From a virus, in IMG/VR virus record IMGVR_UViG_3300025326_000158, positions 1 to 29,275 of that record: a DNA stretch of 29,275 bases; one strand, 5' to 3'. The position numbers and the translations under genes are program-made. A model generated the notes under the pieces. That model made no database searches. It was not told where the DNA came from and worked only from the letters and a program-made list of their open reading frames with translations. Shown one piece after another: positions 2,497 to 21,757 of this stretch; the stretch's first letter is position 1; each line of letters opens with the position of its first letter.

Positions 2497-3414
2497 ATGA
2501 CTGAGGAAAAGGCACTGGTCCAGGACGTTTCCATCGAGCGCCAGGCGCTGCTCTTGCGGCTCGGCGGCGCATATTACGAGGAGATCGCCGCCAGCCTGGG
2601 ACTGGAATCAGGGCAACAAGCACGCGACCTGGTGCGCCAGGCGGTCGAGGCGCAAGAGCTGGATTCAGACGACATTGCCAGGGCAGTGACTGAGCAGCGC
2701 CTGCGGCAATTGCTCCTCGGGCTGTGGCAGCAGGCGACGAAGGGGCACCAGGGCGCGGTGGACCGGGTGCTGCGCATCCTGGACCGGTTGGAGGGTATCG
2801 AGCGCCGCGAGCTGGACGACCCGGCGACGGCATTCCCGGCGCTGCCGGAGGTGCCCGGCCAGGAGGAGAGCCGCTCAGCCTATGCCACGCTCCAGGCGCT
2901 GACCGAGGTCTATCCGGAGGAGGTCGCCTGGTTCGAAGCTTACCAGGGATTGCGCGAGCAGAGCTGGGAATGGCGGAAGGCTGCACTGATCGCCTGGCTG
3001 GCGATGCCGACGAACAAGCGCTGGCCGGCGACGCTCGAGCTCCTGGCGCGCGACGTCCTGGGCCTGAAGAGCGCTCGCACGATCCGCAAATGGCGAGAGA
3101 ACCAGCCGGAAATCGACCTGGCGGTCGAGAAGGTGCGGGTCGGCATCCTGGGCGACCGGCTATCGGACGTAATGTTCGCCTGGGAGACGGTGGCGGCCAT
3201 GCCCGACCCGGCGGCGCACCGCGACCGGATCACGTACCTGGAATGGCAGAAAGTATATAAGGGCAAGGTCGGGCTGGAGCTCTCCGGAGAGGACGGTGGC
3301 CCGGTGCAGGTGCAGCGGATGAATGAGCTCGCAGGATTCGATGATGATGAGCTTGGATGGATCATACGTAACCTCCAGGCAGCGGCAGGAATCGCTGGCT
3401 TGGGCGCTGCTTGA
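2497..3414 (+). CDS. Terminase small subunit-like DNA-binding protein
   Basis: This is a 305-residue, mostly helical protein directly upstream of and overlapping the large terminase. The N-terminus (about 12-50) contains a helix-turn-helix-like stretch (YYEEIAASLGL). A second such region at about 165-205 (LLARDVLGLKSARTIRKWRE) resembles phBC6A51-type phage homeodomains. Small terminase subunits recognise the packaging site on the concatemer and regulate the motor, which fits both position and predicted fold. It is longer than the usual 150-200 residues. Start: ATG 2497 with a short AGGA just upstream; the region before it is filled by a hairpin composite. The function rests on gene order and helix-turn-helix pattern, not a diagnostic motif. 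Confidence 0.65.
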   Translation: MTEEKALVQDVSIERQALLLRLGGAYYEEIAASLGLESGQQARDLVRQAVEAQELDSDDIARAVTEQRLRQLLLGLWQQATKGHQGAVDRVLRILDRLEGIERRELDDPATAFPALPEVPGQEESRSAYATLQALTEVYPEEVAWFEAYQGLREQSWEWRKAALIAWLAMPTNKRWPATLELLARDVLGLKSARTIRKWRENQPEIDLAVEKVRVGILGDRLSDVMFAWETVAAMPDPAAHRDRITYLEWQKVYKGKVGLELSGEDGGPVQVQRMNELAGFDDDELGWIIRNLQAAAGIAGLGAA

Positions 3415-5098
3415 GGTCAACCGGCGGGCGATTCCCGACCTCTCTCTTAGAGGGGAGCGAGGCCTGGATCTGCTCACCTGGACGATTCTCAGGCGGGCGA
3501 ACTTGAAACCGGGAGTGCGCTTCGATCTGCCCGGGCATGCCTATTTGCGAGATATCTATCGCTGCCAGGCGCAGGTCATGGTTATCTATAAAGCCTCCCA
3601 GATGGGCGCCAGCGAATATGCGATCTCCTATTCATTGTATGGAGCCGACGAGCGCAAGGCAAACGTGCTCTACGTTTTCCCTACCGAGAGGCATATCAGC
3701 GATTTCAGCGCGGCCAGGATCGGGCCGGGAATCGAGGCCAGCGATTATCTGAGCAAGATCGTGACCGAGGGCGGCGCGGCAGCCGGCGGAAAGCGCAGCA
3801 TCGACCAGGTCATGCTCAAGCGGGTGCGGGATAACTTCATGTATCTGCGGGGCGGGAAGGTGACCCCGGACGGCAAGGCGCCGCAGCTCAAGAGCATCGA
3901 CGCCGATATCCTGGTGCTGGACGAGGTGGACGAGATGGACCCGCGTGCACCGGCAATCGCCCAGAAGCGCAAGGGGCATTCCGAGATCGCCGAGCAGAGG
4001 TGGATCTCGACGCCGACCTATCCCGATTACGGTATCCACGCCAAATGGCAGGAGAGCGACCAGCGGGAATGGCACGTGCGCTGCGGGAAGTGCGGCGAGC
4101 GCCAGCCGCTGGAGATCGGCCTGCTGGTGCGCGAGTTCGACGACCTGGGCCGGCCGCGTGCCTGGAATCATATCGATGGGCGTTCTTTTCTGGCCTGCCG
4201 GCGCTGTGATCACGAGCTGGACCGCCTGGGCCCGGGGGAATGGGTGGCGACGTACCCGGAGCGGGACATCTTGGGATTTCATTTGACCAGGCTGTTCAAT
4301 GCCACGACGGACCTGGCGGAAATATTGAAATCACTGAGCTCGACCGATGAGACGGTGCGCAAGGAGTGCTTCAACCAGGACCTGGGCCTGCCTTACCTGC
4401 CCAAGGGCGGCAAGCTCTCCGAGAGCGACCTGGACGCATGCCGGCGGGACTACGCCCACAAGCCGGTCCAGGATGAGCGCTGCGTGATGGGCGTGGACGT
4501 GGGCAAGGCCTTGCACGTGGTGGTCCGGGGACCTCGGGATGTGGAGACCGGCGCGCGCCCGCAGCGCTTCGCCGGTGAGGTGGAATCGTTCGAGCAGGCC
4601 GGCCGGCTGATCCAGCAGTACAACGTCTCACGCTGCGTGATCGACGCGCTGCCGGAGACGCGCAAGGCGCGCGAGCTGCAGGCGGAGTTTCCGAAAGGCA
4701 AGGTCTGGCTGGCGTACTACGTACAGCAGAAGACCGGCACCAAGCGCGAAGACGAAGCGGTCTGGGACGATAAAGAAGGCGTGGTCAACCTGGACCGGAC
4801 GCGCACGATGGACCTGACATTCTCCCGATTCTACGACCAGGTCAACACACTGCCGGCGGATATCCGTAGCGTGCCCGATTATTACGCCCACCTGTGTGCG
4901 CCGGTGAGAATATTGGAAGAATCGACCGGCGGGCAGAAGGTGGCGGTCTACCAGGCAGCGGGGGCCGATCATTTTTGTCACGCGGAGAATTATTGCGCTT
5001 CGGCCAGCCTGGACGAGACGATAGCCGAGGCGGCGGTGGAGCAGCCCGAGGCAGGGCAATATCATGCGCAGCGCCGGAAGAGCGCCTGGCAGGGATAA
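3323..5098 (+). CDS. terL: Terminase large subunit, GpA family
   Basis: This is the ATP-driven DNA packaging motor and nuclease, 591 residues. A deviant Walker A (KASQMGAS, K90) and Walker B (ADILVLDEVDE, D200/E201) mark the ATPase. The paired CxxC motifs at C254/C257 and C292/C295 form the zinc-binding insertion typical of lambda gpA-type terminases. The nuclease half begins near MGVDVG (D392), with CVIDALPE (D441) as a second acidic site and ADHFCHAENY as a likely third. The ORF overlaps the small subunit by 92 nt. An alternative start at ATG 3341 has AGGA 4 nt upstream and may be the true one; the motifs are unaffected. Confidence 0.9.
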   Translation: MSSQDSMMMSLDGSYVTSRQRQESLAWALLEVNRRAIPDLSLRGERGLDLLTWTILRRANLKPGVRFDLPGHAYLRDIYRCQAQVMVIYKASQMGASEYAISYSLYGADERKANVLYVFPTERHISDFSAARIGPGIEASDYLSKIVTEGGAAAGGKRSIDQVMLKRVRDNFMYLRGGKVTPDGKAPQLKSIDADILVLDEVDEMDPRAPAIAQKRKGHSEIAEQRWISTPTYPDYGIHAKWQESDQREWHVRCGKCGERQPLEIGLLVREFDDLGRPRAWNHIDGRSFLACRRCDHELDRLGPGEWVATYPERDILGFHLTRLFNATTDLAEILKSLSSTDETVRKECFNQDLGLPYLPKGGKLSESDLDACRRDYAHKPVQDERCVMGVDVGKALHVVVRGPRDVETGARPQRFAGEVESFEQAGRLIQQYNVSRCVIDALPETRKARELQAEFPKGKVWLAYYVQQKTGTKREDEAVWDDKEGVVNLDRTRTMDLTFSRFYDQVNTLPADIRSVPDYYAHLCAPVRILEESTGGQKVAVYQAAGADHFCHAENYCASASLDETIAEAAVEQPEAGQYHAQRRKSAWQG

Positions 5099-5101
5099 TT
5101 G

Positions 5102-5152
5102 CGGCAATATTTCCGCCGACGCGGACGATAAATAGCGGCAGTATTTCTGCCG
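5102..5152. repeat. Pair of short hairpins before the portal gene
   Basis: CGGCAGTATTTCTGCCG (5136-5152) is a perfect 6-bp stem with a 5-nt loop and ends 3 nt before the portal SD. A degenerate copy (CGGCAATATTTCCGCCG, 5102-5118) lies immediately after the terminase stop. The same 17-mer recurs exactly at 13960-13976 inside the sulfotransferase gene. Confidence 0.75.
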
Positions 5153-5165
5153 ATTGGAGGTCATG

Positions 5166-6980
5166 ATGGCTGATCGCAAACCAATGAGCTTCGGCAAGAT
5201 GCCGCTACGTGAGCGTGTGATCCGGCTATTCGGCGGGGTGCCGGCGCCGGAAGCCGAGCGGCGCGCCCGGCGGGCCTATGAAGCCGGCATGGAGGACGGC
5301 AATGACGAGCCGGTGCTGTATACGGCAGATGGGAAACCGATCGGGACCGGCTACGTGGAGACCGGATCGAAGCCGCGCGACCTGTCTAGGATCAGCCAGG
5401 AGAAGGCCATCGAGGCCTGCTATCGGCTGTGGCAGACGCACCCGCTGGCCAAGGCGCTGGTGGAGATCTGGGTCGATTACACCGTCGGCGATGGGGTGAC
5501 AGTAATAGCCGATAACCCGGATGTGCAGGCGGCGCTGGACCGCTTCTGGTTCGACTCGGTCAACGCGCTGGGCGACAAGGAAGGCGGCGTGGGCGAGGGG
5601 CTGGAGGAGCTGAGCCGGGAGCTGTGGCTGTTCGGCGAGCAGGTGATCTTGACCTTCGAGCGCACCGGCGAGGACAAGGGGGCCGTGGCGGACGGGCTGG
5701 TGCGACTGGGCTCGGTGGACCCGACGAACATCTACGCGGTAATCACCGATAAGAGTAACGTGCGCGACGAGCTGGGATTGCGGCTGAAAAGCCCCACCGG
5801 CGGCGGAGATGGGCCGCTGTATAAGATCATCAGACAGGAGAGCGCGTCCGGGCTTATGGAAGGGCGACTCGACCTGCGGAAGTACGCCGATCTGGTGAGT
5901 GGGGACGGACGGCTGTTCGAATCGAGCTGGTCTGAATATGTATCCAGGCTGGGCGAGCTGCGCAGCCGGCTGAGCGGGCGCGAGTTCCGGGTTGATGGCC
6001 TGGAAAATGGATTGATGGAGCTGCGTGAAGCGGAAAATTCGCTGAGCGAGAGCGAGGTGAAGGGCAATTGCTTCTATTTCCGGGTGAATAAGGTCTCGAC
6101 CGGCGTGCGCGGCCGGCCCGAGCTGCTGCCGATGATCGACTGGCTGGACCGCTTCGACCAGGTCTTCTTCGATGGGGCGGAGCATGTGGCGCTGCTGAAT
6201 ATGTTTTCCTGGGACCTGGAGATCGAGGGCGGGAGCGAAACGGCGCCGGAGCCGGAGCGCAATCTGAGGAAGCAGGCGCAGAAAGTTGCGGCGATGAAAC
6301 CGGGCTCGGTGTACGCGCACAACGAAAAGACCGAGCTGGAGGCAAAGAATCCGGACTTGAAGACGGCCGAGCTGGAAGTGCTGATCCGCCAGCTCCGGGT
6401 GTTCATTGCGGGTGGGGCGCGGGTGCCGGAGCATTTTATTGCCGAAGGCGGGTACACCAATAGGGCAACGGCTGAATCTATGGGCCAGCCGACGATGAAA
6501 ATGCTTGCCCACAAGCAGACGGTGATCAAGCGCATCCTGGCCACGCTGTGCCGTTACCAGATCGACGTATTGGTAGCGTTGGGATTGCTGGATAGAGAGG
6601 TAGACATCCTGGACGAGGACGGCCAGCCGGGCGGGAAGACGGCCCCGGCGCGGGAGGCGTTCCGAGTGGTGATGCCGGACATCAGCCAGAAAGACACCAA
6701 CCTGGCGGCGAACTCGCTGGCATTGGTGGCCCAGGCGCTGCTGCCGCTGGTGATGGGTAACATTATCCCCAGGCAGCCGGCGCTGGAAGCCCTGGCGGAG
6801 ATCTTCAAGCTATTGGGCGTGACTCTAGACGTCCAGGATATCCTGGACGAGGAATCGGGCAATACTGGCGCTGTCGATCCAACAGTGGTGGAGCTGCTGA
6901 AGCGGATGGATAAGCTGATCAAGAAGCCGGATGAGAAACCGGAGCCAGAACCAGCGCCGGCAATCCTGCCGCCGGCATAG
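5166..6980 (+). CDS. Portal protein
   Basis: This is a 604-residue protein immediately after the large terminase. It has the portal pattern: an N-terminal arm, WVDYTVGDGVTV and ELSRELWLFGEQ in the early wing region, a long helical stem with FYFRVNKVSTGVRGRPEL, and a C-terminal region ending in a Pro/Glu-rich tail. EHFIAEGGYTNRATAESM is typical of portals of this class. A dodecamer would form the DNA channel at one capsid vertex, dock the terminase during packaging and later bind the connector. The ATG at 5166 is chosen because GGAGG (5156-5160) is 5 nt upstream; an in-frame TTG at 5154 and ATG at 5163 are worse placed. An in-frame stop ends it at 6980, 31 nt before the next start. Confidence 0.85.
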   Translation: MADRKPMSFGKMPLRERVIRLFGGVPAPEAERRARRAYEAGMEDGNDEPVLYTADGKPIGTGYVETGSKPRDLSRISQEKAIEACYRLWQTHPLAKALVEIWVDYTVGDGVTVIADNPDVQAALDRFWFDSVNALGDKEGGVGEGLEELSRELWLFGEQVILTFERTGEDKGAVADGLVRLGSVDPTNIYAVITDKSNVRDELGLRLKSPTGGGDGPLYKIIRQESASGLMEGRLDLRKYADLVSGDGRLFESSWSEYVSRLGELRSRLSGREFRVDGLENGLMELREAENSLSESEVKGNCFYFRVNKVSTGVRGRPELLPMIDWLDRFDQVFFDGAEHVALLNMFSWDLEIEGGSETAPEPERNLRKQAQKVAAMKPGSVYAHNEKTELEAKNPDLKTAELEVLIRQLRVFIAGGARVPEHFIAEGGYTNRATAESMGQPTMKMLAHKQTVIKRILATLCRYQIDVLVALGLLDREVDILDEDGQPGGKTAPAREAFRVVMPDISQKDTNLAANSLALVAQALLPLVMGNIIPRQPALEALAEIFKLLGVTLDVQDILDEESGNTGAVDPTVVELLKRMDKLIKKPDEKPEPEPAPAILPPA

Positions 6981-7011
6981 GCCGGTAAGTCTTATTATCG
7001 GATGAGGATTC

Positions 7012-7971
7012 ATGGGCAAGCGTGAGCTGAGAGCTGCGATCAAACGGCTGCTTAAGAACACCGACCTGACCTGGGAAGAGACGCAGGCGATCCTGGCGGC
7101 GCTGGCGGGGCTGCACGGCGAGCTGCGCCGGCTGCTGCTCGAGAGCGGGCTCTACCGCCCGGCGGAGATTGGCCGGCTGCTGGCCAACCTGGAGGCGATC
7201 ACCACCGATTACGCCCGCCAGATCGTGGTGGCCAACCAGGCGGCGACGCTGCGCGCCTGGCAGCGCGGGATCAGCGGGTTCGATGATCTGGTCGGCACGG
7301 CCGAGCTGACCTGGTCGCCGGGCTTGACCGGGCTGGAGAGCGAGCTGGTGCGCCAGTTCCTGACCACCAGCCGCATCGTGAGCGTGACGGAGGAGATGAG
7401 CGCCGCGATCCGCGGCCAGATAGTGAGCGGGGTGATGATGGAATCAACCCCGTTCGAGGTGATGAGCGTAATCACCAACATCCTGGGCATTCGGGATCTA
7501 CGCGGCTTCCGCGAGATCGGCACCACGGGGATCAGCGCCAAGGCCGAGGCGATCATGCGCACCGAGCTGCTGACAGTGCAGAGCGCGGCCTCCTGGACCA
7601 AGATGGCGGATGCCAAAAACCGATTTCCGGACCTGGAACAAGTCTGGCTGGCGACGGGCGATAATCGCACGCGCTGGGAGCACATCATCGCCCACGGGCA
7701 GCGGGTGAAGGTAGGCGAGCCTTTCGTCGTGGGCGGGGAGAAGGCGCGCTTCCCACGCGATCCGAGCCTGTCGCCGAGGAATCGTATAAATTGCCGATGC
7801 GATGCGATCCCATTCCGCCCGGAATGGGGCGAACAGGATGACCTGATCGGGCCGCTGAGCAAGCAGATCGAGGAGGAGCGCAAGCGGCGCGAAGAGGAAC
7901 AGAAGAAGCTCCAGCTGGAATCTGTACGAGGGGTTTATATCGGAGACACAGATGGGCGCAGACCAACCTGA
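7012..7971 (+). CDS. Phage head morphogenesis protein, Mu gpF / SPP1 gp7-like
   Basis: This is a 319-residue minor head protein following the portal, as in SPP1 and Mu. The C-terminal half carries the family signature: TGDNRTRWEH around residues 215-225, GGEKARFPRDP, and the terminal RINCRC motif (N260-C263). Before it lies a helical N-terminal part rich in Leu and Arg. The charged C-terminus (residues about 285-305, EEERKRREEEQKK) looks like a coiled coil. Family members bind the portal or enter the procapsid with DNA and assist head assembly. SD-like GATGAGGATTC precedes ATG 7012, with the motif TTATTATCGG just upstream. It overlaps the next small gene by 20 nt. Confidence 0.8.
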   Translation: MGKRELRAAIKRLLKNTDLTWEETQAILAALAGLHGELRRLLLESGLYRPAEIGRLLANLEAITTDYARQIVVANQAATLRAWQRGISGFDDLVGTAELTWSPGLTGLESELVRQFLTTSRIVSVTEEMSAAIRGQIVSGVMMESTPFEVMSVITNILGIRDLRGFREIGTTGISAKAEAIMRTELLTVQSAASWTKMADAKNRFPDLEQVWLATGDNRTRWEHIIAHGQRVKVGEPFVVGGEKARFPRDPSLSPRNRINCRCDAIPFRPEWGEQDDLIGPLSKQIEEERKRREEEQKKLQLESVRGVYIGDTDGRRPT

Positions 7972-8851: not shown

Positions 8852-8902
8852 ATACAAACAGCCCCACCTGGGGCGTGCGTGAAACAGCATCCCTAACGGG
8901 AC

Positions 8903-8969
8903 AAGGGCACACGCAACTGCAGCGGCGGCCAAAAGGCCGGACCTCGCAATTGCGTGTGCCTTTTCGTTT
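8903..8969 (+). terminator. Second, branched terminator-like structure in the capsid leader
   Basis: GGCACACGCAA (8906-8916) pairs with TTGCGTGTGCC (8950-8960), extendable by AAG on the left with TTT on the right, and is followed by TTTTCGTTT. Inside the loop CGGCC-AAAA-GGCCG (8926-8939) forms its own hairpin. It may be a second terminator or a structured leader RNA controlling entry into the capsid gene. A small hairpin (GCCCCACCTGGGGC, 8861-8874) lies between the two terminators. No coding sequence fits 8701-9009. Confidence 0.6.
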
Positions 8970-8986
8970 CGGCAGAAATACTGCCG
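8970..8986. repeat. Short hairpin upstream of the capsid gene
   Basis: CGGCAGAAATACTGCCG is a perfect 6-bp stem with a 5-nt loop, 14 nt before the SD of the protease-capsid gene. An identical copy lies at 23225-23241 before the second tail tube gene. Confidence 0.75.
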
Positions 8987-9009
8987 CTAAGGCGTGGATG
9001 GGAGGCGAT

Positions 9010-11925
9010 ATGCCCTATAAAGCGGACAAGCAAATCACCGCGCTCAGGCTAAAAGAAGCCGAGGAATCGGCTGAGAAGAAAGCCCAGAAGGCCCGCTCGC
9101 GCAAATACGGAATCGGGATCAAGCCAGGCGGGAACATGACCAAGCCGGCAGACTACGCCGACGTGTCCGAGAATCTGTTCGCCGACCCGGTCAACTTCCG
9201 CTACCCGCTTTCTCCGGCGATGCGGGCGATCAACGCGATTACCCGCTTCAACGACACGGCCAATAAAGCCAAGGGCGGCTACAGCGACGCCGAGTGGGCG
9301 ATCATGGGACGCAGGATCGCCAAAGCCAACAAGGGCAAGATCTTCAAGGACGGTCAGGTCGTCGATCGGGAGAAAGAGGCGCTCCACGGCTCCAAGGGCA
9401 GCCTGGACGAGTTCGTCGGCAAGATCCGGGATGCCTTCGAGGCCAAGTTCGCCCGTCTGCCCAACGGCGATTACCGCCCCGGCTGCTGGGTGACCGATAC
9501 CTACGAAGACCACGTCGTTGCCAAAATGGACGAAGAATTCTACCTGATCCCATTCGAGATCGACGGGACAGAGGTGATCTTCGCCGGGGTTGAGGACTGG
9601 ACCAAGGTCATCCCGGAAAAGACATACGTGCCGGTCACTGAGGCGCTGCGCATCCTGGCTTCGAAGAAAAAGAAAGACGAGCCGGAGGGCCGCGAGTGGG
9701 AAGTGATCATCATCGGGCCGGAGAGCGATTCCGACTTGGTCACCGAGGGGAAGGAGACCTACGTCAAGTCGAAGAACGGCCGGTTGTACAAGGCGAGCGC
9801 ACTGGAGGCCAGCGTCCCGCTGTGGGATGGGATCAAGGTCTACGACAACCACCTGACGGATGACGAGATGGCCGCCCGGCAAGGGATGCGCTCGGTGGTG
9901 CACGAGTGGGTCGGGGTGATCGTCAAGCCGGCCTGGGACGCAGCCAAGAAGGCCGTGACGGGCGTGTTGAAGATCGTAGACGACAATTTGCGGGCGAAGC
10001 TGCTCAACGCCGAGAAGGCCAGCGTGCTGGACAAGATCGGGCTGAGCATCGACGCCCTGGGAGAGGGGATCGAAGAGACGATCGCCGGGTCGACGACCCC
10101 GGTGATCGAGAAGATCTCCAAGGCTTTGAGCGTGGACGTGGTGGCCGACCCGGCGGCAGGCGGGCGCTTATCACGCATGATTGCGGGGATGACCGGCGAC
10201 AGTTTGCCGAGCGGCCCGCGGAACTTACTTTCACAGGAGGTAGAGATGGACCCAGAAGAGCTGAAGAAATTGATTGGCGATGCCGTCTCCGCCAGCATGG
10301 CCGGGTTTAACGATCGGATTGCCGCAATCGAAGCAAGACTGGCCAGCGCAGGAGACGATGATCCGGACGACGATTCGGATGATGACGATGCCGGCAGCAG
10401 CAACGATACCCAGACTGGCGACCAGCTGCCAGAACCGGTGGCGAAGGCCATCGCCGCAGCGGAGGCCAGGGCGGCCGCGCTGGAAGAGAAGATGCGCATC
10501 AACGAGTGTGCGCACGTGCTGGGCGTGAAGCTGGGCGAGAGCGGCCTGCCCGAGAGCTATCGCGAGATCATCGCCGAACAGTTCCGCGGCAAGGTCTTCG
10601 AGACAGCGGACCTGGAAACGGCGATCACGAAACACCGCGAAGCGCTGAGCAAGCTCTCCGAGAGCGGCAAGATCGTGCTCCCGGACGGGGCGCGGATCAA
10701 AGTTGGCTCGCTGACCGAGCTGGACCGGATCGAGCTGGCGCTGCTGCGCCTGGTGGCCGGCCCGACCCGCTTCACCGAGCTGATCAACAAGGAAAAGGCG
10801 GAATATCACGGTATCGAATCGATCAAGCACTTCATCGAATCCGAGAAGCCGGCGCTGCCCTACGAGCGCAGGCTGAGCGAGTGGTACTATCGTTTCACCG
10901 AGGACTATGACGGCCTGGGGCAGATGCGCAACAAGCGCCTGCTCGAGGCGCAGGTGACTTCCAGCAGCCTGTCGAGCATCGTGAAGAACGTGGTCAACCT
11001 GCTGCTGGCAGCCGATTACTCGGTGCGCGAGCAATGGTGGGACCCGATCGTGCGCCAGGAGGACGTGGACACCCTGGACCAGGCAACCCTGGTGCGGGTG
11101 TTCGGGATCTCGACTCTGACGGCGATGTCCGAGGGCGATGCGTACGTCGAATCCGCCTGGGCCGACGAGGAGGAGACCGCCAGCTACGTGAAGCGCGGCA
11201 ACTATATCGGGGTCACGCTGGAAACGTTCCTGCTCGACAAGCTCAATCGCCTGCGCACACTTCCCAGCCGGCTCTCCAACGCTTACTACAACACGATCTC
11301 GGCGCTGGTCTCGGCGGCCTTCACGGTCAACACGGCGACCGGGCCAGTCTTGGCCGATACCGGGGCGCTGTTCAACTCGACCGCGGTGACCACGGCCGGC
11401 GGGCATGCCAACCTGGGTACTTCGGCGTTGAGCTACAGCTCGTTCGTAGCCGCCCGCACGGCGATGATGAAGCAAACCGACCAGCCCCTGGGCGTAGGGC
11501 GGCGCCTGGCGATGGCCAACCGGCCGCGCTTTCTGCTGGTCCCGGTGGACCTGGTTGCCACGGCGGAGGAGATCCGCAACTCCGAGATGATTCCGGCTCA
11601 GTCTGGTGGGGCAACCTCGGGCGGGCAGTTCCAGACGGTCAACAGCGTGAAGGGACAGTTCGAGATCATCCCGGTGCCGGATTGGACCGACACCGACAAC
11701 TGGGCGGCGATAGCCGACCCGGCGCAGGCGCCGGCGATCTTCCTGATCTGGCTGCGCGGGCGCAGGACTCCGGAGCTGTTCTCGGCGGAGGACGAGCGCA
11801 GCGGAGCGATGTTTACCAACGACGAGCTCAGGTTCAAGGTGCGCCAGTTCGGGTTCCGCTACAGTGCGACGTACGACTGCGCGCCGGTGGCGGACTTCCG
11901 CCCGCTGTACAAGGCGAACGTCTAA
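9010..11925 (+). CDS. Prohead protease / major capsid protein fusion
   Basis: This is a 971-residue polyprotein. Residues 31-105 (KYGIGIKPGG, TKPADYADV, FADPVNFRYPL, GRRIAK) resemble the phage domain DUF6582. Residues about 255-400 look like an HK97/Mu-type S78/U35 prohead protease, with H281 (VYDNH) and S346 (IGLSIDA) as likely catalytic pair. Residues 413-600 form a scaffold/delta-like helical region with an acidic run (449-460). Residues about 600-971 are an HK97-fold major capsid protein (WWDPIVRQED, ETASYVKRGNY, RPRFLLVPVDL, TPELFSAED). Start: GGAGG (9001-9005) is 4 nt before ATG 9010; the frame stays open to 8875, but that covers leader hairpins. The protease would cut off its own and the delta segments during head maturation. 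Confidence 0.85.
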   Translation: MPYKADKQITALRLKEAEESAEKKAQKARSRKYGIGIKPGGNMTKPADYADVSENLFADPVNFRYPLSPAMRAINAITRFNDTANKAKGGYSDAEWAIMGRRIAKANKGKIFKDGQVVDREKEALHGSKGSLDEFVGKIRDAFEAKFARLPNGDYRPGCWVTDTYEDHVVAKMDEEFYLIPFEIDGTEVIFAGVEDWTKVIPEKTYVPVTEALRILASKKKKDEPEGREWEVIIIGPESDSDLVTEGKETYVKSKNGRLYKASALEASVPLWDGIKVYDNHLTDDEMAARQGMRSVVHEWVGVIVKPAWDAAKKAVTGVLKIVDDNLRAKLLNAEKASVLDKIGLSIDALGEGIEETIAGSTTPVIEKISKALSVDVVADPAAGGRLSRMIAGMTGDSLPSGPRNLLSQEVEMDPEELKKLIGDAVSASMAGFNDRIAAIEARLASAGDDDPDDDSDDDDAGSSNDTQTGDQLPEPVAKAIAAAEARAAALEEKMRINECAHVLGVKLGESGLPESYREIIAEQFRGKVFETADLETAITKHREALSKLSESGKIVLPDGARIKVGSLTELDRIELALLRLVAGPTRFTELINKEKAEYHGIESIKHFIESEKPALPYERRLSEWYYRFTEDYDGLGQMRNKRLLEAQVTSSSLSSIVKNVVNLLLAADYSVREQWWDPIVRQEDVDTLDQATLVRVFGISTLTAMSEGDAYVESAWADEEETASYVKRGNYIGVTLETFLLDKLNRLRTLPSRLSNAYYNTISALVSAAFTVNTATGPVLADTGALFNSTAVTTAGGHANLGTSALSYSSFVAARTAMMKQTDQPLGVGRRLAMANRPRFLLVPVDLVATAEEIRNSEMIPAQSGGATSGGQFQTVNSVKGQFEIIPVPDWTDTDNWAAIADPAQAPAIFLIWLRGRRTPELFSAEDERSGAMFTNDELRFKVRQFGFRYSATYDCAPVADFRPLYKANV
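10246..11925 (+). CDS. Nested in-frame product: scaffold plus major capsid protein
   Basis: Inside the fusion gene, AGGAGG (10235-10240) lies 5 nt before ATG 10246, in the same frame. Initiation there gives a 559-residue protein (MDPEELKKLIGD...) that begins exactly at the helical scaffold-like segment and ends with the capsid domain. This would let the phage make many capsid subunits and few protease-bearing fusions, as lambda does with C/Nu3 or HK97 with separate genes. The sequence shows the SD and frame; that both products are made is inferred. Confidence 0.65.
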   Translation: MDPEELKKLIGDAVSASMAGFNDRIAAIEARLASAGDDDPDDDSDDDDAGSSNDTQTGDQLPEPVAKAIAAAEARAAALEEKMRINECAHVLGVKLGESGLPESYREIIAEQFRGKVFETADLETAITKHREALSKLSESGKIVLPDGARIKVGSLTELDRIELALLRLVAGPTRFTELINKEKAEYHGIESIKHFIESEKPALPYERRLSEWYYRFTEDYDGLGQMRNKRLLEAQVTSSSLSSIVKNVVNLLLAADYSVREQWWDPIVRQEDVDTLDQATLVRVFGISTLTAMSEGDAYVESAWADEEETASYVKRGNYIGVTLETFLLDKLNRLRTLPSRLSNAYYNTISALVSAAFTVNTATGPVLADTGALFNSTAVTTAGGHANLGTSALSYSSFVAARTAMMKQTDQPLGVGRRLAMANRPRFLLVPVDLVATAEEIRNSEMIPAQSGGATSGGQFQTVNSVKGQFEIIPVPDWTDTDNWAAIADPAQAPAIFLIWLRGRRTPELFSAEDERSGAMFTNDELRFKVRQFGFRYSATYDCAPVADFRPLYKANV

Positions 11926-13017: not shown

Positions 13018-13296
13018 ATGAGAGGTCCTTTCTCATCTTTAGTGTCCGCAGTCAGTGCGCTGGTGAAGAGCGGTCCAGGGGCAGTCTACGCGATCACGCT
13101 GACGGCCGGCGCGGACGCAGCCACGCTGATCCTGGATGCCAGCATCGATGGGAGCGGGGCGGCGCTATGGGCGACGATCAAGGCGCCGATCAATACGACG
13201 ATATCGGTCTGGTTCCCGGGCGGGCTGGCCTTCGGGCCAGGCTGTTATGCGACGCTAACCGGGACGGCTCCGAGCGCGGCGGTGCTGTATTCATAG
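13018..13296 (+). CDS. Small hypothetical virion-like protein
   Basis: This is a 92-residue, Ala/Gly/Thr-rich protein with alternating hydrophobic stretches (YAITLTAGADAATLILDAS, YATLTGTAPSAAVLYS), which suggests a small beta-sandwich. It has almost no Lys or Glu. The start is well defined by GAGGAGG (13007-13013) 4 nt upstream. Hairpin clusters border it on both sides, so it may behave as a movable cassette. The family is not recognised. A decoration or fibre-base role fits composition and position. An overlapping longer frame (12903-13409) lacks an SD and reads through the hairpins, so it is rejected. Confidence 0.6.
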   Translation: MRGPFSSLVSAVSALVKSGPGAVYAITLTAGADAATLILDASIDGSGAALWATIKAPINTTISVWFPGGLAFGPGCYATLTGTAPSAAVLYS

Positions 13297-13405: not shown

Positions 13406-14218
13406 ATGAAAATTCTGATTAATTCTTTCCCGAAGAGCGGCACGCACCTGGCCATGCAGATGGCGGAGGCGCTGGCCCAACGGCGTGAGCCAACGCCTTG
13501 GATGGACTGCTTTGACCTGGGCGGCTGGGGGACGCGCTTCGAAGACCTGGATGCGACGGTCCGGCAGATCCGCAGCCAGCCTGACGGGACCTGGATGGTA
13601 GGGCACGTGGGCTACAGGCCGGAGATCGCCGAGGCTCTCCGGAAGGCGGGAACGGCCGTGCTGTTCGTGCATCGGGACCTGCGCGACGTGGCGGTGAGCC
13701 AGGTGCGCCACATCGAGGATCCGGACGAGGAGCGCTTCCGGCACCCGGGCAAGATATTGTACATGAGCCTGGGGAGCTTCGAGGAGCGCCTGCGGGCGGT
13801 GATCGAGGGGCTGGACCATTACCTGGGTATCTTCGAACGCTGGGCGCTGTTTGCGCCGTGGCTGGAGCAGGGCTGGATCCTGCCGCTGCGCTACGAGGAG
13901 ATGATCGACGAGCCGGATGCGACTGCCAGACGATTCATGAATTATGTGATCAATCACAGCGGCAGTATTTCTGCCGATGGCGGGACGGTCTCGTGGAGCG
14001 AGTACGAACGCGGCGTGCGGGCAGTTTTGCAAGGGCTGCAGGAGCGCGACGGTCCAACGTTCCGCGAGGGGAGAGCCAGCAGCTGGCGGGAGGCCTTCTC
14101 GCTGGAAATGGAGCGGCTGTTCGTGGGCCAAGAATCGGCTCTATGGGCGGCCGATAATGCACATTATCAGTCGCCATCGCCAACTTTGTTGGCGCCGCCA
14201 ACCGGTTGGCGTAGCTGA
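13406..14218 (+). CDS. PAPS-dependent sulfotransferase
   Basis: This 270-residue cytosolic sulfotransferase (Sulfotransfer_1-type fold) lies among virion genes. FPKSGTHL (residues 8-15) is the 5'-phosphosulfate loop and GHVGY (H67) holds the likely catalytic histidine. VHRDLRDVAVSQ (89-99) is the 3'-phosphate-binding motif, RYEEMI (162-167) follows the usual spacing, and FREGRASSW (219-227) is the last PAPS-binding element. It would move sulfate from PAPS to a hydroxyl or amine; the acceptor is unknown (virion tyrosine or glycan, or host surface sugar). Two hairpin-repeat units are read as protein: SGSISAD (185-191) and roughly the last 20 residues. There is no clear SD, but the PAPS loop at residue 9 fixes the start. 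Confidence 0.85.
   Translation: MKILINSFPKSGTHLAMQMAEALAQRREPTPWMDCFDLGGWGTRFEDLDATVRQIRSQPDGTWMVGHVGYRPEIAEALRKAGTAVLFVHRDLRDVAVSQVRHIEDPDEERFRHPGKILYMSLGSFEERLRAVIEGLDHYLGIFERWALFAPWLEQGWILPLRYEEMIDEPDATARRFMNYVINHSGSISADGGTVSWSEYERGVRAVLQGLQERDGPTFREGRASSWREAFSLEMERLFVGQESALWAADNAHYQSPSPTLLAPPTGWRS
13960..13976. repeat. Short hairpin inside the sulfotransferase gene
   Basis: Exact copy of CGGCAGTATTTCTGCCG, identical to 5136-5152, read in frame as part of SGSISAD between the YEE motif and the C-terminal PAPS motif. Confidence 0.75.
14159..14211 (-). repeat. Composite hairpin element, inverted copy
   Basis: Read on the minus strand this is CGCCAACCGGTTGGCG, one base, CGCCAACAAAGTTGGCG, then ATGGCGACTGATAATGT. 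That is the same order as the forward copy at 2416-2475. On the + strand it supplies about the last 20 codons and nearly the stop of the sulfotransferase gene. Confidence 0.75.
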
Positions 14219-17132: not shown

Positions 17133-17495
17133 GTGAGGCCGCAATGTCATTACAGGCCGCCCTGGAAAATCTATTACGATGGCGGGGCGACATACAACGG
17201 GAACGCGTGGGACGCGCCGGTGTTTGGAGTGCTAGTGATCGTGGAGTTCGATTTTGACCACGGGCGGCGATTGGTGATGGCCGCAGATTATTATGTGTAT
17301 CGAGACTACAGGTGGTATGGTGTGGACTGGATCGGGATGGTCGATTATCTGGCCCAGCCTGGCCCAAAGCGGGTACTGTTTGGGCGCACTGTGCCGAGTG
17401 ATTATTTCAATAAGATGGTGAAGCGCGCCAATGAAGACCCCGATTTTCCTATCCGGACGGCCTGGGGGGCGCGTGAGCGGAGGGTAATTGACTAA
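17133..17495 (+). CDS. Conserved phage protein of unknown function
   Basis: This is a 120-residue protein with a pattern I recognise from other phage virion clusters: PPWKIYYDGGATY, GVLVIVEFDFDHGR, DYYVYRDYRWYGVDWIGMVD, VLFGRTVPSDYFNKMVKRAN, DPDFP. It is rich in Tyr, Trp and Asp. The start is GTG 17133, because GAGGAG (17123-17128) is 4 nt upstream and the preceding gene ends at 17131. It overlaps the repeat protein by 8 nt. Function is unknown; the abundant tyrosines in acidic context are the type of site tyrosine sulfotransferases use, an untested link to the gene at 13406. Confidence 0.6.
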   Translation: MRPQCHYRPPWKIYYDGGATYNGNAWDAPVFGVLVIVEFDFDHGRRLVMAADYYVYRDYRWYGVDWIGMVDYLAQPGPKRVLFGRTVPSDYFNKMVKRANEDPDFPIRTAWGARERRVID

Positions 17496-19575
17496 TCCAT
17501 CCTTCACCCAGGTTGCTTTTCGCGGTCGCAACGATGACGGATCCGAGAGCGGTGCGTCCTGGAAGGCCGCTCAGAATATCAACTGGACGCAGGATACCGG
17601 CCAGAATTTCCGCGTCCGTTTTCTGATCGACGAGTCGGGGGCGAAAGCCTGGACCAATAAAATCTGGAACCTGTATTACTCTCTGAACGGGGGCGCTTAT
17701 ACCGCGGTCAGCGGGACGACCCCGGTGCAGTTTGCCCTGTCGAATAACTTCGCGGATGGGGATGACTGCACCTCGCAGCTTACTGGCGGAAGTGGCGCCT
17801 TCGTTACCAACAACAACGGGATGAAGGAGGCGACCGGCGGGGCGATCAACTCGGGCGCGATCGGAGAGTATTTCGACACCGAGTGGTGCCTAACGCTTGA
17901 CGCTGGTCAAGTGTCGAATAACGACACTATCGCTCTGCGCATCTACGACGGAGCGACGGCCATCACGGCATATACCAATACACCGACGATCACGGTCGTC
18001 GAGGGGACGCAGTTTCAGCAAACCGTTGCCGGCACGCTGAACAGCAGCGGCGCGCTGCTCAGGCAAACGCAAGCAGCGAAAAGCGGATCGACGACGCCCG
18101 CAGGTGACCTGCTCAGGCAAACGCAAGCAGCGAAAAGCGGATCGACGACGCCAACCGGGACGCTGAGCAAGCAGGCCCGCACCTCTAAAGCCGGGACGCT
18201 GAACTTGTCTGGCGCGTTGAGCATCACCAGGCTGAAAAGCCTGGCTGGCACATTGACAACCGCTGGCGCGCTGACGCGCATCGTGTACGACATGGTTGCC
18301 GCCTGGGTGATCGAGCACGTCTACGACTACCGCATCCGCGCCCGCGTGATGCGGCGCAGGCTGATCGCCAGCTTGGTCGAGAGGATTGGCGGCAACGAGT
18401 TTTCCCAATCCATTTCCGGGACGCTGAGCAGCAGTGGTGTATTGAGCAAGCTGATAAGCCTAAGTAAAGCCGGGACGCTGAGCAGCAGTGGTGTATTGAG
18501 CAAGCAGCCCCGAACTGCGAAGACTGGCACGTTGAGCAGCGCGGGCACCCTGGTGGGCCAGGCACGTAAGGCTCTGGACGGCATGCTCAGCAGCGCAGGA
18601 GCGCTGATCAAACGCACCGGCACAGCCAAAGCGGGCACGCTGAATAGCAGTGGAGGGTTGCTCAAGCGCACAGCGCGAGGCCTGGCTGGCAGCTTGTCCG
18701 GCAGCGGGGCACTGGCCAGGCAGGCGATCCTGGCTAAGATAGGCACGCTCACCAGTTCCGGCGTATTGAGCGGGTCGAAAGTGACCTTGCGCAGCCTGAC
18801 GGGCACGCTGAACAGCTCAGGCGCCCTGGTGAGAAAGGCCGTGAAATCCCTGGCCGGCGCGTTGAGCAGCTCCGGCGCGCTGAGCAAGCAGGCCCAAGCT
18901 GCCAAGGCTGGAACGCTCAGCGAGAGCGGCACACTGATCAAGAGAACCGCTACTGCCAAGGCCGGCACGCTGAACAGTTCCGGCGCTTTGGTGGCGCTCA
19001 AAACCTTCTTGAGAGCCCTTACCGCCACGCTCTCCAGCAGCGGTACGCTGAACAAGATGGTCAGGACGAGCAAAGCTGGGATGCTCTCCAGCAGCGGCAG
19101 TCTGACCAAACGCGCTGTGCGGGCATTCTCCGCCCTGTTGAGCAGTAGCGGGAACGTCACAAAACGAACCGGCGCCACCAAAACAGGCTCGCTCGGTTCA
19201 TCCGGTGTTCTGGCGGGACTCAAGACGATGTACAGAAGCCTGGCGGGCGCGCTGTCCTCTTCCGGCGTATTATCACGCCGCCCCGGGAAACAAGTCGCCG
19301 GGACACTTATCGAGAGCGGGGCGCTGAGCGTATCTGCCCGCAAGGCGCTTTCGGGCATGTTGTCTTCGTCCGGCAATGTCGTCAAGCGGATCAGACGCAG
19401 CTTGAGCGGCGTGCTGAGCTGGCTGGGCAATCTGGCAAGCCAGATCATTGGGCCGGCGGTTGGCTTGGAGGAGCTGTATCTGCACACAGAATCGCTGGAA
19501 TTGACCCTGTGGACGGAGAGCACGGAGATTGTTTTGCATGATGGATCGCTGGCATTGACTCTGGAGGATTTATAG
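17488..19575 (+). CDS. Long virion-like protein made of 18-residue repeats
   Basis: This is a 695-residue protein. Residues 1-180 form a beta-rich head (NIYYS-type strands, TVVEGTQF). Residues about 181-660 contain about 24 copies of an 18-residue unit, consensus AGTLSSSGALSKxxxxxK, with basic Lys/Arg at fixed positions. Units 12, 16 and 20 are 20 residues long, giving a 74-residue superperiod. A non-repeat helix (about 258-300) interrupts units 5 and 6. The C-terminus repeats a strand pattern (ELTLWTESTEIVLHDGS). TTG 17488 is the start, with GGAGG (17479-17483) 4 nt upstream. Repeats of this kind occur in uncharacterised phage proteins; a fibre or solenoid is likely, function unknown. Confidence 0.65.
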   Translation: MTNPSFTQVAFRGRNDDGSESGASWKAAQNINWTQDTGQNFRVRFLIDESGAKAWTNKIWNLYYSLNGGAYTAVSGTTPVQFALSNNFADGDDCTSQLTGGSGAFVTNNNGMKEATGGAINSGAIGEYFDTEWCLTLDAGQVSNNDTIALRIYDGATAITAYTNTPTITVVEGTQFQQTVAGTLNSSGALLRQTQAAKSGSTTPAGDLLRQTQAAKSGSTTPTGTLSKQARTSKAGTLNLSGALSITRLKSLAGTLTTAGALTRIVYDMVAAWVIEHVYDYRIRARVMRRRLIASLVERIGGNEFSQSISGTLSSSGVLSKLISLSKAGTLSSSGVLSKQPRTAKTGTLSSAGTLVGQARKALDGMLSSAGALIKRTGTAKAGTLNSSGGLLKRTARGLAGSLSGSGALARQAILAKIGTLTSSGVLSGSKVTLRSLTGTLNSSGALVRKAVKSLAGALSSSGALSKQAQAAKAGTLSESGTLIKRTATAKAGTLNSSGALVALKTFLRALTATLSSSGTLNKMVRTSKAGMLSSSGSLTKRAVRAFSALLSSSGNVTKRTGATKTGSLGSSGVLAGLKTMYRSLAGALSSSGVLSRRPGKQVAGTLIESGALSVSARKALSGMLSSSGNVVKRIRRSLSGVLSWLGNLASQIIGPAVGLEELYLHTESLELTLWTESTEIVLHDGSLALTLEDL
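18055..18152 (+). repeat. Recent tandem duplication, 54-nt period
   Basis: A 44-nt segment at 18055-18098 is repeated exactly at 18109-18152, offset by 54 nt, one repeat unit of 18 residues. It encodes LLRQTQAAKSGSTT twice. Confidence 0.8.
18416..18504 (+). repeat. Second recent tandem duplication, 54-nt period
   Basis: A 35-nt segment at 18416-18450 recurs exactly at 18470-18504. Both encode SGTLSSSGVLSK. The 54-nt offset is the same as at 18055. Confidence 0.8.
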
Positions 19576-21214: not shown

Positions 21215-21757
21215 ATGGCCGGCCCGATGATCGAATTCGAGATCGACGTGAGCGAGCTGCTGCGGTTGGCGGCGGCGGTCCCGGTGCTGGAGCGGGCCAT
21301 CGAGGAGGAGGGCGCGCTGGCGATGGAGGAGAGCGGGATGCTGCTGACCGGGATGGTGGCGGCCAGGACGCCGGTCAATTATGGGCTGCTGCGCAGTTCG
21401 ATCTCCTGGCCGGCGGGCTTCGAGACCCAGGGCAGCATATTAGACACTCTGCGCGGCATCGTGGGCGCCAGCGACAAGCCGGGCACCGGTGGGACCTCCA
21501 CGGCGACCTACGTGTGGTACGTGGAGGAGGGCACCGGTCCGCACTGGCCGCCGGCGGGGCCGTTGAAATTGTGGGCGATCCGTAAGTTCGGCGACGAGCG
21601 GGTCGGCTATGCGGTACAGCGAGCGATCGCTATGCGAGGCACGCGGGGCGCGCACATGTTCCAGAAGGCCTGGAACGAGGGCGGCAGATCGGGCGTGACG
21701 CGCATCTGGGATGGCGTGCCGGTGAAGTCGATGGTCAAGTTCAGAGGAGCGGCTTAG
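21215..21757 (+). CDS. Neck / tail-completion protein, HK97 gp10-like
   Basis: This is a 180-residue protein with the HK97 gp10 pattern: LAMEESGMLLTGMVAARTPVN, the strand-loop TYVWYVEEGTGPHW, LWAIRKFGDE and the terminal RGTRGAHMFQKAW. These proteins bind between connector and tail or act in tail completion. AGGAG (21205-21209) is 5 nt upstream of the ATG. The order connector, gp10-like, tail terminator, tail tube is the standard siphovirus order, supporting the call. Confidence 0.75.
   Translation: MAGPMIEFEIDVSELLRLAAAVPVLERAIEEEGALAMEESGMLLTGMVAARTPVNYGLLRSSISWPAGFETQGSILDTLRGIVGASDKPGTGGTSTATYVWYVEEGTGPHWPPAGPLKLWAIRKFGDERVGYAVQRAIAMRGTRGAHMFQKAWNEGGRSGVTRIWDGVPVKSMVKFRGAA

Follow-up and report, generated by a model that had tools for sequence, protein, structure and literature searches.

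We describe a sulfotransferase gene in a 29,275-nucleotide stretch of viral DNA, positions 1 to 29,275 of the IMG/VR record IMGVR_UViG_3300025326_000158. This whole stretch is called the window hereafter, and coordinates without a locus label are window positions. The gene is an open reading frame (ORF) at 13406–14218 on the plus strand, with an ATG start, 270 amino acids (aa) and no internal stop. Its product is a Sulfotransfer_1 protein of a conserved, phage-specific clade whose genes are tied to the head gene block. We propose, at slightly below even odds (about 0.48), that it is a late-expressed sulfotransferase that uses 3′-phosphoadenosine 5′-phosphosulfate (PAPS) of the host and most likely acts on a glycan or a decoration protein of the virion. 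The proposal builds on computed results, namely the family and fold of the protein, its conserved motifs, purifying selection, a distinct phage clade, a conserved genomic position and a cellular sister group encoded beside PAPS synthesis.

A clade of phage sulfotransferases linked to head genes

Scans of IMG/VR yielded 29 loci in total with a relative of the sulfotransferase, some of which are the same contigs. In an IQ-TREE phylogeny of 60 phage and cellular sequences, 25 phage sulfotransferases formed a single clade (support 98/99), sister to a set of Anaerolineae enzymes. The window protein falls inside this clade and apart from the cellular sequences. One further phage sequence, L201, is distant and sits on a long branch outside the 25-member clade. 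Since the label ‘phage’ takes two changes on the tree, a strict single origin of all 26 phage sequences is not established. A profile of the phage enzymes gave at least 196 bits for whole phage members and at most 164 bits for cellular sequences, a separation to be read with the profile itself having been made from phage members. Searches of reference collections gave no relatives: PHROG returned no match for seven phage members, NCBIfam no model match, and tblastn against 50,697 phage records no sulfotransferase relative. A genome-contig scan with the two nearest copies revealed no close cellular donor, the best cellular identity being about 34%. The initial annotation had named a random host-derived passenger, without conservation in related phages, as one of two cases that would speak against a phage modification system. 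A lone passenger of this kind was ruled out, as all phage copies except L201 form one clade apart from the cellular genes and keep their genomic slots. Locus L191 carries two different genes of the clade, at 2704–3741 and 6188–7063 of that locus, which flank a gene of 780 aa.

In 18 of 22 phage lineages, genes for the terminase large subunit (TerL), portal, major capsid protein (MCP) or connector lie within about 3 kb of the sulfotransferase. These lineages were counted by hand from a table of gene-family order, with L183 and L184 taken as one lineage and L003, a truncated near-copy of the window, omitted. The remaining four (L145, L186, L187 and L188) have no head or packaging genes within about 3 kb. 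The enrichment has a p-value of about 9e-6 at a background rate of 35% and about 2e-3 at 50%, where both rates are assumed and the lineages are not fully independent. Three slots recur. The gene lies between MCP and connector in the window, L146, L149, L182, L185, L189, L190, L192, L193, L194 and others, between TerL and portal in L079, L073/L151 and L195–L197, and between MCP and portal in L183/L184. In L146, L151, L190, L193, L194 and L196 it overlaps or abuts a neighbouring gene by a few bases, and several of these overlaps are with head genes. Thus the gene was correctly placed by the initial annotation inside a virion block, and it is under selection there (see below). The remark that sulfotransferases are rare in such blocks holds among the relatives of this phage. 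The family as a whole, however, is present in about 22 phage lineages, and 18 of these have it next to head genes.

Pairwise distances of MCP and sulfotransferase correlate among 11 phages (Mantel r 0.54, p 1.5e-4), as expected under partial co-inheritance. The window enzyme clusters with enzymes from the MCP-to-connector slot of phages that have other head genes, and not with the TerL-to-portal enzymes of its own portal family. Because of this grouping by slot, the sulfotransferase seems to have moved between phages at times with its slot preserved.

A PAPS-type fold and its cellular sister group

The window protein matched Pfam PF00685 over residues 2–236 (E 3.6e-9, 36.8 bits against a gathering cut-off of 22). 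While a search of the Protein Data Bank (PDB) with the window protein as a single sequence returned nothing, a profile built from seven phage members matched human SULT1A2 at E 7.8e-15 and the human SULT1A enzymes at E of about 1e-14. An AlphaFold2 model of the window protein (predicted local distance difference test, pLDDT, 78.7; predicted template modelling score, pTM, 0.78) has the alpha/beta fold of SULT enzymes, aligning with SULT7A1 (5x2b) at Z 14.5 over 219 residues with 17% identity and with bacterial Teg12 at Z 13.2. Pfam, profile and fold therefore agree with the initial annotation on a PAPS-type sulfotransferase. The ORF is a genuine coding sequence, because a second contig, L004/L005, encodes an identical protein (17 kb aligned at 99.3% DNA identity), a copy with 86% aa identity is present in L003, and the ratio of nonsynonymous to synonymous substitution rates (dN/dS) between the window and L003 is 0.27, which indicates purifying selection (Fisher p about 5e-9).

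The PAPS-binding and catalytic regions of sulfotransferases, including the region IV motif GxxGxxK, are reviewed in PMC4199319. In the profile alignment to SULT1A2, K10 of the window protein corresponds to YPKSGT, H67 to the His of KTHLP, R90 and S98 to RNxKDVAVS, and R220 and G222 to RKGxxGDW. The respective segments, all on the plus strand, are the 5′-phosphosulfate-binding loop FPKSGTH (residues 8–14; 13427–13447), the candidate catalytic base H67 in GHVG (13604–13606), the 3′-phosphate-binding motif RDLRDVAVS (13673–13699) and the C-terminal, GxxGxxK-like PAPS motif REGRASSWR (residues 220–228; 14063–14089). All 25 phage members share K10, G12, H67, R90, S98, R220, G222 and W227. This conservation and the alignment with the SULT His bear out H67 as the candidate catalytic residue. 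The further statement that all PAPS motifs are intact is right for K10, H67, R90, S98, R220 and G222, but residue 225 is Ser in place of Gly and the canonical C-terminus has been replaced. The enzyme is thus like the cytosolic SULTs (SULT1A, SULT7A1) and bacterial Teg12 and StaL in fold, 5′-phosphosulfate-binding loop, catalytic His, 3′-phosphate Arg/Ser and C-terminal RxGxxxxW; it differs from them in the Ser at the second Gly of GxxGxxK, in a C-terminus derived from a repeat and in being encoded by a phage.

Relatives of the MCP in genome contigs are mostly from Anaerolineae/Chloroflexota, and those of the L149 MCP were also found in genomes of the class Anaerolineae. The hosts therefore probably belong to Anaerolineae. 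Sulfotransferases of the same class are the closest cellular clade found, with 27–34% identity to the window protein. We checked 14 Anaerolineae-class genomes (G033, G034 and twelve others), and in 13 of them a strong match to APS (adenosine 5′-phosphosulfate) kinase lies on the same contig, within about 5–14 kb of the sister sulfotransferase. By Pfam, the G033 cluster also encodes capsule-synthesis, methyltransferase, GT2, CTP-transferase and MptE-like proteins; NeuB-like synthases and a sulfurylase/APS kinase fusion are further candidate members recognized by reading the translations. This suggests that the cluster makes a sulfated surface glycan and supplies PAPS that a phage could use. The phage enzymes resemble the tandem sulfotransferases of these capsule-type clusters as their closest cellular kin. 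They differ in forming a separate clade among head genes, whereas the Anaerolineae enzymes are cellular, stand by PAPS synthesis and have Tyr for the catalytic His in about half of the cases.

The Anaerolineae cluster, to which our finding also points, is an observation in its own right. Tandem sulfotransferases by APS kinase, capsule and nonulosonate-type genes recur in L142, L143 and L204, in contigs G033:C21 and G034:C51 and in other Anaerolineae genomes. Tyr occupies the catalytic His position in 11 of 20 cluster enzymes (among cellular L135–L164 and L179–L181), and one enzyme of each tandem pair may be inactive or mechanistically different.

Proposed role and its alternatives

If the proposal is correct, the window protein would be a soluble, PAPS-dependent enzyme of the SULT fold, supplied with PAPS by the host, and its gene would probably be transcribed late together with the head genes. 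It would move sulfate to a hydroxyl on a new virion component, which may be a capsid protein of decoration type or a glycan that such a protein carries. One plausible benefit is that the particle surface, being negatively charged, would mimic the sulfated surface glycan of the host. More tentatively, the same may apply to the group as a whole: phages, many of them probably infecting Anaerolineae, could use sulfotransferases of the capsid block to sulfate glycans or hydroxyls of capsid decoration proteins, so that their surface resembles the host's sulfated capsule.

Genes beside other members of the clade offer a candidate acceptor. The gene directly upstream of the sulfotransferase belongs to one family in L146, L149, L189 and L200. 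The model of this family (pLDDT 73) is all-beta and jellyroll-like, and its structural matches include 3j4u_H, the capsid jellyroll protein of BPP-1 (Z 8.8, 24% identity), and a Carin1 capsid chain (Z 7.8). We take 3j4u_H to be the cement protein of the BPP-1 structure, and on this model the upstream family is possibly a capsid cement. A second small upstream family occurs in L184, L192, L193 and L188. Tyr makes up only 1.4–5.2% of the small proteins encoded upstream. Neighbours of glycan-modifying type are an MptE-like domain in L190 (below cut-off), a methyltransferase in L182 and a group-1 glycosyltransferase in L079.

Several findings weigh against the proposal. The gene is accessory: about 43 loci that span from MCP to the next conserved gene do not have it there, including relatives at 62–70% MCP identity. 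These loci belong to the window's own capsid family, some are near-duplicates, and only the window group has the gene in this slot. Between the window copy and the small gene upstream lie 109 nt of repeats, and between it and a 242-aa gene lie 260 nt that include a short ORF; co-expression with head genes is deduced from gene order and overlaps. The cement-like assignment concerns the upstream gene of other phages, not that of the window; it comes from a model of modest confidence (the pLDDT of 73), XepA scores higher than the capsid proteins (Z 11.1), and a sequence-profile search of the PDB gave no match for the family. The window, itself a genome fragment, showed no glycosyltransferase. Finally, the window copy alone among phage members has lost G225, and family-rare substitutions are more numerous on its side than on the L003 side (23 versus 11, p 0.06).

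Among the alternatives, the most serious, though we consider it unlikely, is that the enzyme adds sulfate to a glycan of the host surface (a capsule or nonulosonate polymer) during infection and so masks the receptor, either to block superinfection or to ease the release of progeny. The nearest cellular relatives are indeed the capsule-cluster sulfotransferases by APS kinase, and the host cluster contains methyltransferase and MptE-like domain types that have counterparts near some of the phage enzymes. In addition, the MCP-to-connector slot accepts other genes that possibly act on surfaces, such as one in L008, a relative from the group with 62–70% MCP identity; this gene, at 3562–4479 of that locus, occupies the window's sulfotransferase slot and is weakly glycoside-hydrolase-like (PF02449, below cut-off). 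However, the position among head genes suggests expression past the best time for superinfection exclusion, and the genes with which it is linked are those of the capsid, not early or lysogeny genes. Because of this link to capsid genes we place action on the virion ahead of modification of the host surface.

It is less probable still that the window gene is an accessory passenger in decay, its product nearly or wholly inactive, even if active relatives exist. Signs of wear are visible in this copy. All 23 of the other phage members in the alignment have Gly at position 225, the second Gly of GxxGxxK, as do 34 of 35 cellular sequences, so that the Ser of the window is unique among the phage enzymes; position 228 is Arg where the motif has Lys, an Arg common in this family, and G222 and W227 are kept. 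The canonical C-terminus LGYExDxW is absent from the window and L003, and the final residues are encoded by a dispersed repeat (14143–14215, plus strand) that is also found at 2412–2489 on the opposite strand. An 18-nt palindrome, GCGGCAGTATTTCTGCCG, is inserted in frame at 13958–13975 (plus strand; residues about 185–190) and is absent from L003. The excess of rare residues and the close relatives without the gene would fit decay as well. On the other hand, the overall dN/dS of 0.27 between the window and L003, the open frame and the intact catalytic residues argue for function; the palindrome falls in a loop whose length varies across the family, and L073 likewise lacks the canonical C-terminus. 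The same evidence qualifies the initial annotation's view that the enzyme is likely active. Frame, catalytic residues and selection favour it, but G225S and the repeat-derived C-terminus weaken it and may lower activity. Judged from its sequence, the window copy is thus likely, but not assured, to be active.

We give very little credence to sulfation of a modified base as part of DNA hypermodification. PMC10829341 cites an earlier report that phages modify nucleotides by means of sulfotransferases, but the genes sit with virion assembly and not replication, and a search for thymidylate-synthase-family genes, whose positive control matched, found none in 12 partial records that carry a sulfotransferase (a Tet/JBP search, its control silent, has no weight for or against). 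Equally improbable is the suggestion of the initial annotation that the acceptor is a neighbouring Tyr-rich, LamG or Ser/Lys repeat protein. Genes for such proteins lie downstream in the window, and Tyr-rich and repeat homologues just downstream of the sulfotransferases in L145 and L189, but these homologues are near only a few sulfotransferases without consistent linkage, some (LamG and repeat proteins) are present in phages that have no sulfotransferase, the upstream small proteins are Tyr-poor, and the cellular relatives point to glycans.

Sulfotransferases have been reported in cyanophages and OM43 phages, with PF13469 (PMC10580990), and in that OM43 phage paper their function is described as unclear. 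Our enzymes are like these in being carried by phages with an unclear function, and the model of the Synechococcus phage S-SCSM1 sulfotransferase gave a fold match (E 2.2e-4, template modelling score 0.38). They are unlike them, as far as those are described there, in their conserved place among capsid genes. For sulfation of a virion component, an analogy is offered by capsid glycosylation in mycobacteriophage Che8 (Freeman et al. 2023, as cited in PMC11256854), in which phage-encoded transferases put glycans on capsid proteins; here, by contrast, the enzymes are sulfotransferases encoded inside the head block, and their action on the virion is a proposal. A literature search that left out most subscription journals found no paper on virion sulfation, and such a system, if real, would be described in none of the literature found. 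A fixed place among capsid genes, combined with cellular kin in a surface-glycan cluster by PAPS synthesis, makes it a testable question whether some phage particles are sulfated.

Other genes and repeats of the window

The window genes listed in this paragraph are all on the plus strand. TerL is encoded at 3323–5098 (PF05876, phrog_675) and the portal at 5154–6980; the relatives L079, L073/L151 and L195–L197 carry a sulfotransferase between the terminase and this type of portal, whereas the window does not. Upstream of the sulfotransferase, the ORF at 8875–11925 encodes 1016 aa and appears to be a fusion in which a head protease, possibly a scaffold, and the major head protein are joined (PHROG head maturation protease / major head and protease). 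The small ORF directly upstream (13018–13296, 92 aa) has homologues in the same place in L010 and L009, which lack the sulfotransferase there. A neck/tail-completion protein at 21215–21757 (phrog_5) marks the end of the head-connector block. Scanning the region for sigma-70 promoters gave no hit, a result that is uninformative for this host, and a tRNA scan was empty.

The ORF at 17488–19575 encodes a 695-aa protein made of 54-nt (18-aa) Ser-rich repeats, and it is near-identical in L003, where the sulfotransferase is only 86% identical. L003 additionally contains a TnpB/IS605 OrfB-like gene (3705–4817 of that locus, minus strand; PF07282, PF01385) among its head genes, which is absent from the window. 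Some predicted proteins near the sulfotransferase in other phages have lipobox-like N-termini and repeats (L187:4329–5024, L188:3671–4615 and L194:8798–11248); lipoproteins inside a virion block would be unusual.

Palindromes of the form GGCA-N3-7-TGCC are dispersed over the window. They number 28, compared with about 5 in a crude shuffle. Examples are found at 5136, 8970, 13312, 13960 and 23225, and several lie within or between head genes. Their density in the window is 9.6 per 10 kb, versus 1–2 in the relatives L008–L010.
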